Assembly: GCF_000023885.1 (NCBI RefSeq)
Contig: NC_013165.1
Span: forward strand, 1,984,001-2,048,000
DNA length: 64,000 bases
Direction: 5' to 3'
DNA from: Slackia heliotrinireducens DSM 20476
Lineage (GTDB): Bacteria; Actinomycetota; Coriobacteriia; Coriobacteriales; Eggerthellaceae
Shown here: positions 44,776 to 47,567 of the stretch, piece by piece
Layout of the letters: each line of letters opens with the position of its first letter
How positions within the stretch are numbered: position 1 is the first letter of the stretch
The notes under the pieces: generated by a model
The model's database searches: none
What the model was told of the DNA's origin: nothing
The model's input: only the letters and a program-made list of their open reading frames with translations
Program-made: the position numbers and the translations under genes

Positions 44776-45558
44776 ATGGACATCACATTCGGCGACATCC
44801 AAGAGACAGCGCTGGTCACACTGGCCATACGCGCAAGCGAAACCGCGCGCCCCAACCCGCGCATCCGAGACGAGAAGGCGGCCGAGATCATCCGCACCCT
44901 GGGCGTGGACGTGAGCAAATACGACCCCTTCCTCTCCCATGAAGGCGTGGTGGCGCGCACCATCATGTTCGCAGATGCGCTGCGCGCGCTTATCGAGAAG
45001 TTTCCCGACGCGGTCTGCATAAACCTGGGGTGCGGCTTCGACGACAAGTTCAGCCAGGTGGACAACGGGCGCATCGAGTGGTTCGACGTGGACTTGCCCG
45101 ACCAGATCGCCGTGCGACGCAAGGTGTATGAAGACCGTCCGCGTTGCACCATGATGGACGGCGACGCGCTTGACGGCGGCTGGACCGCACAGCTTCCCAA
45201 GGGCCGGGACTACATAATCGTGCTAGAAGGCGTTGTCGAATATTTCACGAAGGAGCAGACGGCCACATGCCTGCACATGCTGTGCGACAGCTTCGAGCAC
45301 GGCTGGCTTGTGTGCGAGATGAATTCGCCGGTTATGGCCAAGCATTCCGACAAGCACGACGCCATCAAGAACACGAACGCCACGTTCAAATGGGGCACGA
45401 AGTCTGGTGCGGAATTCGTCGAGCTGGAGCCGAGGATGCAGCTTGTGTCCGAACGCAGCTACAACGAGGAGATGCGCAAGCACACGCTGCGCGGCAAGCT
45501 GTTCGCCGCCACCGTCGGCAAGAACCTGAACAACCGAATTGCCGTGTTCGCCTGGTAG
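44776..45558 (+). CDS. SAM-dependent methyltransferase, LCM/TcmP-like family
   Basis: A 260-residue class I methyltransferase of the leucine carboxyl methyltransferase type, which also includes polyketide O-methyltransferases. The SAM motif INLGCGFDDKF is near residues 78-88, EWFDVDLPDQIAVRRKVY near 99-116, and the VLEGVVEYFTKEQ motif near 151-163. The ATG follows TAGGAGGCC. It lies 151 bases upstream of the VYGPP lipoprotein and radical SAM genes, which have their own promoter. Functional linkage to them is possible but unproven. Acceptor is probably a carboxyl or hydroxyl group. Confidence 0.88.
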   Translation: MDITFGDIQETALVTLAIRASETARPNPRIRDEKAAEIIRTLGVDVSKYDPFLSHEGVVARTIMFADALRALIEKFPDAVCINLGCGFDDKFSQVDNGRIEWFDVDLPDQIAVRRKVYEDRPRCTMMDGDALDGGWTAQLPKGRDYIIVLEGVVEYFTKEQTATCLHMLCDSFEHGWLVCEMNSPVMAKHSDKHDAIKNTNATFKWGTKSGAEFVELEPRMQLVSERSYNEEMRKHTLRGKLFAATVGKNLNNRIAVFAW

Positions 45559-45638
45559 CGACGCTTCGCATTTCCGAAAACATCCTTTCGTATAACCACG
45601 AATGCCCAACGTCAGCGAGCTTGCCTGCTGACGCAAAT

Positions 45639-45667
45639 TTGCGGCGTCTATGGCTCGACGGTATAAT
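45639..45667 (+). promoter_or_regulatory. Promoter of the VYGPP lipoprotein-radical SAM operon
   Basis: TTGCGG (45639-45644), a 17-base spacer, and a consensus TATAAT (45662-45667). Transcription would begin near 45674, 36 bases before the lipoprotein ATG at 45710. Confidence 0.65.
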
Positions 45668-45709
45668 GAGGTCGGTGCAATCGGTGCACAAAGGGAGGCA
45701 AGCAGCGTC

Positions 45710-46468
45710 ATGAAGAAGCGCACAATCGGACTCGTCACGGCATCTTCCCTGGTGGCAGGGGCGGCTGTGGCAGGCGCGCTCTTCATTCCCAGCTGCAACC
45801 AGCCTGTAGCCGTATACGGCCCTCCCGACCCCGAACCCGTCTACGATCCGGCGAACAACGAGAACGAGGATGTTTACGGCCCGCCCGAATACTTCGACGA
45901 CAACGACTCCGCAGACATTGTGGACGAAGCCGAACACGAATCCCCCGACGCATCCGAGGACGAAGCCGAAACCGCCGATAAGGCGAACGCCGACCAGGCC
46001 AGCGCCTCTTCCGGGGTCGTAACCACCGGCCAGACGTCGTATACGTCATCTTCCGCCCAATCCGCGTACGCTGACGAAGCCGACATCCAGTCCGTCGATT
46101 ACGAACCCGCGAAAGACCCCGAGCAGACGATTCCCTCCTCGGCAGAAGCCGCAAATGCAGCCGGCCCCGGCTTCTTCGTAGTCGACGAAAACGAGAACGT
46201 GTGCGTGTACGGGCCTCCGGAATGGTTCGAGCCCGGATACGACCCGACCAACAACCAGAACGTCGACGTGTACGGTCCGCCCGAATATTACGATGATTCC
46301 GACAAGCCGGAATTCATCGCCAGCAGCAACGAGAACGTGTGCGTGTACGGGCCGCCGGAGTGGTTCGAACAGCACGGCGGCAACCCCGATAAGCCCGATC
46401 AGGGCGGCACGTCGGAAAACGAGTCTGAAACCAGCGAACCCTCCGAGGGCGCGGACGAGCAACGATAA
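45710..46468 (+). CDS. Lipoprotein with five YGPP repeats, partner of a radical SAM enzyme
   Basis: A 252-residue acidic, low-complexity exported protein. Residues 1-28 form a signal peptide with lipobox-like FIPSC (Cys29). The mature part carries YGPP at residues 36, 56, 167, 188 and 213. Two homologous blocks of about 34 residues, 34-66 and 165-197, each hold two motifs separated by a YDP-NN linker; a fifth motif stands alone near the C-terminus. Forms are VYGPPEWF (twice preceded by VC) and VYGPPEYF/EYY. The repeats are joined by Glu/Asp/Ser/Ala-rich disordered sequence. The ATG follows AAGGGAGG. A radical SAM/SPASM gene follows at once, so the repeats are probable modification sites. I recall a radical SAM-associated lipoprotein family in databases; function is unknown. 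Confidence 0.85.
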   Translation: MKKRTIGLVTASSLVAGAAVAGALFIPSCNQPVAVYGPPDPEPVYDPANNENEDVYGPPEYFDDNDSADIVDEAEHESPDASEDEAETADKANADQASASSGVVTTGQTSYTSSSAQSAYADEADIQSVDYEPAKDPEQTIPSSAEAANAAGPGFFVVDENENVCVYGPPEWFEPGYDPTNNQNVDVYGPPEYYDDSDKPEFIASSNENVCVYGPPEWFEQHGGNPDKPDQGGTSENESETSEPSEGADEQR

Positions 46469-46496
46469 CGAACCGATACGGATCGGCCGAAACCAC

Positions 46497-47567
46497 ATGC
46501 ATGCCTTGAAAGAACAGCACCTCAACCAGCTGGCCGATTACACCCGGCAGCTTTACCGCGCTCCCGAGCTGCGCAAGCTGTTTCTGGAACTCACACTGCA
46601 ATGCAACGAGCATTGCTGGCACTGCGGCAGCAGCTGCACCGCTGCCCGCGGCGACGAGCTGTCGACCCAGGAATTCTGCAGCGTCATAGACCAGGTGAAG
46701 ATAGACTTCGCCGACAAGCTCCCCTACCTGTGCATCACGGGCGGCGAGCCTTTGCTGCGCCACGATTTCTTCGACATCATGGGGCATGCGCACAGGCTGG
46801 GATTCGACTGGGGCATGACCAGCAACGGCACGCTCATCACGCCCGAAGTGGCCCACAAACTGGCGGCATGCGGCATGCGCACCGTTTCGATATCGATAGA
46901 CGGAACGCCTGAAAGCCACGACCGGTTCCGCGCGAGCTCCAGCGGGTTCGACCGCGCGATGGCAGGCGTGCAGAGCCTCATCGACGAAGGCGCCTTTTCC
47001 AGCGTACAGGTGACCACTGTGGTGAACCACGTGACCGTGAACGAGCTGGACGCGATGTTCGACATGCTTGGCGACGTGGACATCGATTCGTGGCGCGTCA
47101 TCAACGTGGAACCCATCGGTCGCGCGCTGCAACGCCCCGACCTGATGTGCACGCCTGACGACTTGCGCCGCATGTTCGGGTTCATCCGCGAGAAGCGCGC
47201 CCAGGGCTGGCCCGTGGAGTACGGCTGCAGCCACTATCTGGGACTGGACTTCGAGGTGGAGGTGCGCCCCTGGTACTGGCTGTGCAACGCGGGCGTGTAC
47301 ACGGCGAGCGTCACGTCCAACGGCGACATCGCCGCATGCCTGGACATCCCCCGCCGACCCGACACCGTGCAGGGCAACATTCGCAAGCGTCGGCTACGCG
47401 ATGTGTGGGAAAACGAGTTCACCTTGTTCAGGCGCGATATCGGCGACTCCTGCGAGGAGTGTTGCTCCTGCGAGCACATGCGCTTCTGCCGCGGCGGCGC
47501 CTGCCATAGCTGGGATTTTGACGCCAACCGCCAGCAAATCTGTCTGAAAGGCGTGCTCTTCGACTGA
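46497..47567 (+). CDS. Radical SAM/SPASM protein
   Basis: A 356-residue radical SAM enzyme. The cluster motif CNEHCWHC (C-x3-C-x2-C) is at residues 36-43, GGEP at 82-85, and a SPASM-like cysteine-rich C-terminus (WLCNAG, AACLDIPRR, CEECCSCEHMRFCRGGACHS, then ICLKG) would bind one or two auxiliary [4Fe-4S] clusters. SPASM enzymes typically modify peptide side chains by forming thioether, C-C or epimerised residues. The start ATG at 46497 lies 28 bases after the lipoprotein stop without a strong ribosome binding site, suggesting coupling. The VYGPP lipoprotein is its likely substrate. No precursor peptide of ordinary RiPP size is seen nearby. Confidence 0.9.
   Translation: MHALKEQHLNQLADYTRQLYRAPELRKLFLELTLQCNEHCWHCGSSCTAARGDELSTQEFCSVIDQVKIDFADKLPYLCITGGEPLLRHDFFDIMGHAHRLGFDWGMTSNGTLITPEVAHKLAACGMRTVSISIDGTPESHDRFRASSSGFDRAMAGVQSLIDEGAFSSVQVTTVVNHVTVNELDAMFDMLGDVDIDSWRVINVEPIGRALQRPDLMCTPDDLRRMFGFIREKRAQGWPVEYGCSHYLGLDFEVEVRPWYWLCNAGVYTASVTSNGDIAACLDIPRRPDTVQGNIRKRRLRDVWENEFTLFRRDIGDSCEECCSCEHMRFCRGGACHSWDFDANRQQICLKGVLFD

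Follow-up and report, generated by a model that had tools for sequence, protein, structure and literature searches.

How a radical S-adenosylmethionine (SAM) enzyme acts on the lipoprotein encoded beside it is the question raised by a two-gene locus of Slackia heliotrinireducens DSM 20476. We analyzed this locus within a window of 64,000 nt (the whole stretch of DNA under study; NC_013165.1, positions 1,984,001 to 2,048,000), and all coordinates below are those of the window. The lipoprotein carries five Tyr-Gly-Pro-Pro (YGPP) sites. It is very probably the substrate of the enzyme, with the repeated motifs as the sites of modification, and comparisons among genomes indicate that the two genes very probably constitute an enzyme-substrate unit widespread in a range of gut bacteria. 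Our best reading of the chemistry, to which we give somewhat better than even chances, is that tyramine would be excised at each Xaa-Tyr-Gly, as by the known spliceases.

The lipoprotein and radical SAM genes

The lipoprotein gene (45710-46468, + strand) encodes 252 amino acids, beginning with a signal peptide of 28 residues (45710..45793, +) that carries T-A-S, a form of a recurrent motif described below. The signal peptide ends before Cys29, which we read as the lipobox cysteine from the sequence. The mature part of 224 residues has a calculated isoelectric point of 4.05, with 54 Asp and Glu residues and 5 Lys and Arg residues. Its five YGPP sites, all on the + strand, place tyrosine at residues 36 (V-YGPP, 45815..45826), 56 (DV-YGPPEYF, 45875..45886), 167 (VCV-YGPPEWF, 46208..46219), 188 (DV-YGPPEYY, 46271..46282) and 213 (VCV-YGPPEWF, 46346..46357), and residues ~30-66 align with residues ~159-195. 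The sequence thus confirmed the original prediction of a secreted, acidic, internally duplicated lipoprotein with five YGPP motifs, two of which have the form VCVYGPPEWF. Cysteine is found at residues 29, 165 and 211, and tryptophan at 172 and 218. The protein had zero matches in Pfam (E up to 1) and NCBIfam (E up to 10).

Directly downstream lies the gene for the radical SAM/SPASM enzyme (46497-47567, +; 356 amino acids). Because its ATG is only 28 bases past the lipoprotein stop codon, it is plausible that the two genes share a transcript. A putative -10 hexamer upstream of the lipoprotein gene, read from the sequence, is an exact TATAAT (45662..45667, +), preceded at a spacing of 17 bases by TTGCGG (45639-45644), which has 3/6 matches to the -35 consensus. 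This region (45639-45667) had been described as one good promoter; the -10 element and the spacer justify that description, the -35 element does not, and the pair was absent from the list produced by a consensus promoter scan.

Both the sequence and Pfam bear out the predicted CX3CX2C motif and SPASM-like end of the enzyme. The cluster cysteines are C36-x3-C40-x2-C43, within the motif CNEHCWHCGS (46602..46631, +), and the Pfam matches are Radical_SAM (3.1e-20) and SPASM (1.4e-07, residues 263-325). The SPASM auxiliary cluster region extends from Cys263 to Cys349 (47283..47543, +), and cysteines 263, 281, 322, 325, 331 and 349 are invariant in our enzyme alignment (A2). The best NCBIfam model was TIGR04133 (rSAM_w_lipo), at 261.2 bits against a curated cut-off of 425, a threshold not exceeded in any of 138 genomes from its bacterial family; the enzyme is related to TIGR04133 but falls short of the cut-off. 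A family of radical SAM-associated lipoproteins, mentioned in the original prediction, does exist as the curated pair TIGR04133/TIGR04134. Assignment of the lipoprotein itself to TIGR04134 (cut-off 39.8 bits) was rejected, as there was no match up to E = 10.

Pairing of enzyme and YGPP protein across genomes

TIGR04133-like enzymes (profile search, E <= 1e-45) were present in 9 of the 138 genomes of the bacterial family, including our own, and in each of the other eight carriers the enzyme gene is immediately preceded, on its own strand, by an open reading frame (ORF) that contains 2 to 7 copies of YGPP. A single-protein search of 396 genomes of the phylum (E <= 1e-40) returned our genome as the sole match, because the other carriers were outside that draw. 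In a genome-wide scan with an enzyme alignment (A1), a relative was encoded by 495 of 595 stretches among the matches listed, and we retained the 80 best loci. Their titles name Coriobacteriia or Bacillota in 79 instances and an 'Actinomycetes bacterium' in one (L021); a herbivore host is named in 29.

For these 80 loci, up to 700 bases 5' of the enzyme were translated in the sense frames with no gene model assumed. YGPP was encoded upstream in 78 loci, in a total of 257 copies, and each of the 11 other letter orders of YGPP was encoded 0 times in the same stretches. YGPP was also not encoded on the antisense strand upstream, nor on either strand of the 700 bases downstream (76 loci). The remaining two loci, L077 and L081, are nearly identical to each other; in both genomes a VYGPP protein is encoded elsewhere, and its stretch ends ...FDPIDNINEVVYGPPQD-stop.

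Ten carriers (enzyme at E <= 1e-60) were present in 245 Clostridia genomes drawn separately; one of the ten, G716, is also among the best 80. All ten enzymes adjoin a secreted X-Y-G-x-P protein, nine with it upstream and one downstream. A DNA pattern for DVYGPP followed by Glu or Pro, the last two letters of which admit a few other residues too, matched six of these genomes, compared with 2 matches of the reversed control, and five of the six were enzyme genomes (Fisher p = 2e-07). We rejected the sixth (G1032) as a case of the motif without the enzyme; its motif ORF looks spurious, lacking a signal peptide or repeats. When 24 whole enzyme-bearing genomes were scanned, 18 had a VYGPPE-coding match and six had none, and 39 of the 41 matches fell inside the enzyme locus (4 matches for the reversed control). 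The two outside (G720:C51:42910 and G717:C18:26743) are possible trans partner genes or chance. CVYGPPE-coding DNA was found in 296 genomes of our class only in our own and in G577, both enzyme carriers. Homologous lipoproteins occurring mostly without a radical SAM neighbor would have told against the original prediction; we observed the reverse, in 78/80 loci with the other two supplied in trans, in 10/10 Clostridia carriers and for 39/41 motif matches.

The carriers are patchily distributed, with 9/138 in the family and 0/11 among the other genomes listed for the genus, and the Coriobacteriia and Bacillota enzymes interleave in the earlier of our trees (see below). These observations suggest horizontal transfer of the unit among gut bacteria.

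Conservation at the YGPP sites

We tabulated 314 YGPP sites from 108 distinct proteins; one reverse-strand ORF (L035) was left out, and some ORFs were cut at contig ends. Every protein was included on the basis of YGPP, so these four letters are constant by construction in this count, and the unselected evidence for them comes from the 78/80 upstream test and the 10/10 Clostridia draw. The residue before the tyrosine is V at 250 sites, L at 38, A at 8, I at 7, M at 4, T at 3, E at 2 and S at 2. Cysteine is at -2 in 38/314 sites, and tryptophan is within the 12 residues starting at the tyrosine in 55/314. The constant site is Tyr-Gly(-x-Pro), and neither Cys nor Trp is constant.

Each protein has 1 to 7 sites, and arrays of up to six genes adjoin one enzyme, the longest being six genes before the enzyme of L088. 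The carriers are otherwise unlike one another, and include acidic lipoproteins, CarboxypepD_reg-like lipoproteins and dockerin proteins; a Tyr-Gly shared by such unlike proteins is as expected of a modification site. The pairing counts and the constant Tyr-Gly thus favor the earlier idea that the motifs are repeated modification sites on a surface-anchored protein. Signal-like starts were obtained for 86 of 107 ORFs. Twelve of the 86 are Tat-like (RR.F), and 54 contain the motif T-A-[ASGTV], compared with 3/23 in a small control set.

In Ruminococcus-like genomes, secreted YGPP proteins have type I dockerin domains, with 4/4 of those tested passing the Pfam cut-off. YGPP arrays with dockerin-like repeats, and without a lipobox, lie upstream of the enzyme in several Ruminococcus-type genomes (L073, L076, L080, L085, L088, L089 and L096). 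It is possible that these arrays tie the modification to cellulosome-type assembly.

A common site in the TIGR04133/TIGR04134 pair

Plasmid records contained three TIGR04133-type enzymes, each adjoining a lipoprotein gene that lies upstream of it in Parabacteroides and in Treponema, and on the downstream side in Phocaeicola. Two of the three enzymes were scored, and both exceeded the TIGR04133 cut-off (607.9 and 451.4 bits). All three lipoproteins pass the TIGR04134 cut-off, and their sites (EYGSPHANF, EYGTPSADY and CYGMPENYY) place the tyrosine 10, 12 and 1 residues, respectively, after the lipobox cysteine, again assigned by reading. Among the 245 Clostridia genomes only G1028 had over-cut-off TIGR04134 matches, namely two proteins, one adjacent to the enzyme and one in trans, and both contain MYGPPP. 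X-Y-G-x-P was therefore present within 12 residues past the lipobox cysteine in 5/5 TIGR04134 proteins read. Our lipoprotein has the same arrangement (C29-NQPVAV-YGPP), a feature found here and not curated. In another Clostridia carrier (L144), LYGVP occurs in a lipoprotein that scores only 14 bits on TIGR04134. X-Y-G-x-P is thus a feature common to the curated pair and the YGPP family; the latter is the larger of the two, and neither Pfam nor NCBIfam has a model dedicated to it.

Relationship to PlpX-type spliceases

PMC10533398 gives MYG and LYG as natural sites of the splicease PlpX, reports that an engineered GYG is accepted and that the leader of a ribosomally synthesized and post-translationally modified peptide (RiPP) is not required, and lists PlpA2-derived tags with the frame PIRP-X-YGLPI (its Table 1). 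In PMC11002830, PlpX is placed in IPR026482, works with PlpY, a protein with a RiPP recognition element (RRE), and performs a modification described as 'widespread in nature'. In Nostoc sp. C057, we found a nif11-class peptide radical SAM maturase 3 (TIGR04103, 853 bits) beside a Nif11 precursor ending ALYGLPPELF. From the shared name and setting, our reading is that TIGR04103 represents the PlpX family; we take IPR026482 to be the same family as TIGR04103.

Our main tree comprised 37 rows and was midpoint-rooted, with the YGPP rows thinned to 11. The outgroups were AhbD/NirJ-like, TIGR04053, TIGR04347, MftC and PqqE rows, as the plasmid and genome matches offered; the AhbD/NirJ-like rows are under the TIGR04545 cut-off and were so named by us. 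The lipoprotein-linked enzymes formed one clade of 16 rows (100/98), sister to a group made up of four PlpX-type rows and one Agathobacter enzyme, and support for the joint group was 97/95 (97/89 in an earlier tree without the AhbD/NirJ-like rows). A one-clade constraint without the Agathobacter enzyme was rejected (p-AU 0.008), because its position is within the group, next to the PlpX-type rows. Our own genome has two further adjacent radical SAM genes (G000:C1:1339973-1343217; L002 and L003), weak matches to TIGR04133 (~103-106 bits), the products of which were placed among the NirJ/AhbD/TIGR04347-like rows.

Residue conservation was compared after one long-branched row of our own genome was dropped and with the Agathobacter row kept apart. 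G44, S45, W199, E253 and R257 were common to all 16 lipoprotein-linked and all four PlpX-type rows, and G249 to all 16 and to three of four; each was present in <35% of the 15 outgroup rows. G44 and S45 are the Gly-Ser after the third cysteine of the radical SAM motif, and E253 to R257 correspond to 47253..47267 (+).

A proposed splicing reaction and its alternatives

The X-Y-G rule, the PlpX-type sister clade and the shared residues are the reasons why we propose splicease-like editing. The enzyme would act in the cytosol on the not yet exported lipoprotein encoded beside it, modifying each Xaa-Tyr-Gly-x-Pro. At up to five sites, most of the tyrosine (tyramine) would be cut from the protein backbone, a computed loss of C8H9NO, or 135.0684 Da, at each; the variable residue before the tyrosine (V, L, A, I, M, T, E or S) is as the known X-Y-G rule allows. 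If splicing is the correct reading, the change to expect is ~-135.07 Da per site in place of the -2 Da per motif anticipated originally. Recognition of the signal peptide as a leader by the enzyme is possible, and T-A-[ASGTV] may be the motif recognized, or its recurrence may reflect common descent. After export and lipidation, the modified lipoprotein would display as many as five ketoamide groups. These might inhibit gut proteases covalently or act as decoys for them. This surface role is speculative, and is raised because spliceotide products are protease inhibitors, as stated in PMC11117315 with citation of Scott 2022.

A broader proposal, which we consider to have a little less than an even chance, is that the TIGR04133 enzymes and the larger YGPP-linked sister group are a single RRE-free splicease family, perhaps with the signal peptide as leader. 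Such a family would make lipoproteins and dockerin (cellulosome-type) proteins carry 1-7 alpha-keto-beta-amino residues each, forming a covalent protease- or amine-reactive surface array, and spliced surface proteins would be recurrent in gut bacteria.

Several observations weigh against splicing. The enzyme scored 120.6 bits on TIGR04103 (cut-off 725), for which reason its assignment to that family was rejected, and it scored higher on AhbD (144.6), TIGR04053 (132), NirJ2 (126.1) and MftC (125.2). PlpXY is choosy: of the tags listed for FtsZ, it accepted only two GYG forms and none of the LYG forms (PMC10533398). Proline is retained at +2 and +3 throughout the YGPP family, and Asn is at -6 in 220/314 sites; the splicing rule requires neither. 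The Agathobacter rectalis enzyme of the joint group (plasmid record L100, 3025-4179) has HCGS and the Trp, and is without E253 and R257; the two neighbors read contain no YG partner. TIGR03913-type enzymes, in the sister clade, have DUF1843 peptides as neighbors, and not all of these contain YG (2/3 in Azospirillum, 1/3 in Aureibacter). Finally, no RRE partner was found among the clustered flanking ORFs, which were of 70 amino acids or more, so that a tiny partner protein could have been overlooked.

The main rival to splicing is that the same enzyme performs another radical reaction at Tyr-Gly-Pro-Pro, such as a Tyr-centered C-C, C-O or C-N crosslink (to the Asn at -6, for example), oxidation of Gly or Pro, or epimerization. 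SPASM enzymes of neighboring families do varied chemistry (PMC8326336), and the hidden Markov model scores above do not single out the splicease model. The Asn at -6 and a Pro at -9 (164/314 sites) could be read in the same way, but many YGPP sites of dockerin proteins lack the Asn, as do all five of the TIGR04134 sites that we read, and the X-Y-G rule and the residues common to the PlpX-type rows point to splicing. We regard other Tyr-Gly-Pro chemistry as unlikely, at rather more than one chance in four. Another reading, proposed originally, was crosslinking of Cys, Tyr or Trp through thioether or aryl bonds, with methylation by the LCM-type enzyme encoded upstream. VCVYGPPEWF, twice present in our lipoprotein, invites this interpretation. 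The counts across the family (Cys at -2 in 38/314 sites, Trp near the tyrosine in 55/314) led us to reject Cys or Trp crosslinks in favor of the constant Tyr-Gly(-x-Pro), and homologues of the methyltransferase were found in 2/80 loci; we consider the combination very improbable.

Hardly more credible to us is that YGPP is a docking or signal motif only, the enzyme acting on another molecule with the lipoprotein as its partner. The enzyme-substrate chemistry of the pair is itself a prediction from sequence, which leaves room for such an arrangement, but the repetition of sites (1-7 in each protein), the arrays of as many as six genes and the unlike carriers fit a substrate better than a partner. 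Acidic proline-rich repeats occur in many surface proteins, so one might also suppose that these are plain, unmodified repeats located beside the enzyme by chance. Chance adjacency of the YGPP gene and the enzyme is ruled out by the pairing counts, both 78/80 versus 0 for each permutation and 10/10 in the Clostridia draw, and we give plain repeats almost no chance. Splicing is the reading that we prefer.

Neighboring genes

The LCM-type methyltransferase gene (44776..45558, +; Pfam LCM 4.6e-08) ends 151 bases before the lipoprotein start. Its position and identity agree with the original description, whereas the suggestion that it adds a methylation step to the unit does not hold up. Its homologues in the 80 loci number two, both distant (28-29% identity) and on the opposite strand; the short flanks of the eight same-family loci were outside this search. 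We therefore rejected the methyltransferase as a third component, and it appears not to be part of the unit. No flanking family recurred in more than 4 of the 107 proteins scanned (of 139 flanking proteins listed). Past the 3' end of the enzyme in the same-family genome G577 is an ORF fragment (L006, 8-271) that is class I methyltransferase-like and, judged by eye, does not resemble the window's LCM gene.

Significance

Function is not assigned to TIGR04133/TIGR04134 in NCBIfam, where the models are of type 'hypoth_equivalog'; our proposal offers a concrete reaction at a defined site for this pair and for the larger YGPP family. If it is true, backbone splicing is not confined to RiPP precursors but extends to lipoproteins and cellulosome-type proteins on the surfaces of bacteria of the gut and rumen. 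Unusual reactive groups on the cell surface would bear on host-microbe and microbe-microbe protease contacts. Proteomics would miss the peptides concerned through an unexpected -135 Da, and the enzymes could be tools to install ketoamides without an RRE partner. Our literature search found no publication on TIGR04133, TIGR04134 or the pair; Scott 2022, Lakis 2022, Morinaka 2018, and Haft and Basu 2011 were outside its reach, and priority is uncertain. Literature on the string YGPP concerned unrelated settings.

Comparison with known systems

The maturases of sactipeptides and ranthipeptides form thioethers from conserved Cys donors in the substrate, whereas the sites described here have Cys at -2 in only 38/314. 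MftC (mycofactocin), PqqE and the AhbD/NirJ-like enzymes are SPASM proteins with other substrates and partners. They resemble our enzyme as members of the same superfamily with partial model scores, but in the tree they are outside the clade of lipoprotein-linked and PlpX-type enzymes.

Closer is TIGR03913, the GDL motif peptide-associated maturase, which with DUF1843 shares the sister-clade position, the succession of several small genes before one enzyme, and YG in some products. On plasmids of Azospirillum (L104) and Aureibacter (L103), three DUF1843 genes are followed by a TIGR03913-type enzyme, and some of the peptides have YG near the N-terminus. These peptides may also be splicing substrates; they differ from YGPP proteins in that no signal peptide is in view and YG is not constant.

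TIGR04133/TIGR04134 resembles our locus as a two-gene unit in which the enzyme is encoded next to the lipoprotein. TIGR04133 is the best NCBIfam match for our enzyme and belongs to one clade with it (100/98), and the TIGR04134 partners have X-Y-G-x-P near the lipobox. The differences are that our enzyme is under the 425-bit cut-off, and that our lipoprotein is unmatched by TIGR04134 and is an acidic repeat protein with five sites, compared with one in the TIGR04134 proteins read.

A further comparison is with the PlpXY splicease and its products, the spliceotides. PlpX acts as a complex with the RRE protein PlpY, whereas no RRE partner was found here; its precursor has a Nif11/NHLP (nitrile-hydratase-type) leader where our partner has a signal peptide, and our partner is an exported lipoprotein and not a RiPP precursor. 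Our enzyme, a predicted splicease, is far under the TIGR04103 cut-off. What the two have in common is a radical SAM/SPASM enzyme, an X-Y-G target (five V-Y-G sites in our lipoprotein), the position as sister clades, and the shared CxxxCxHCGS, W199, E253 and R257.

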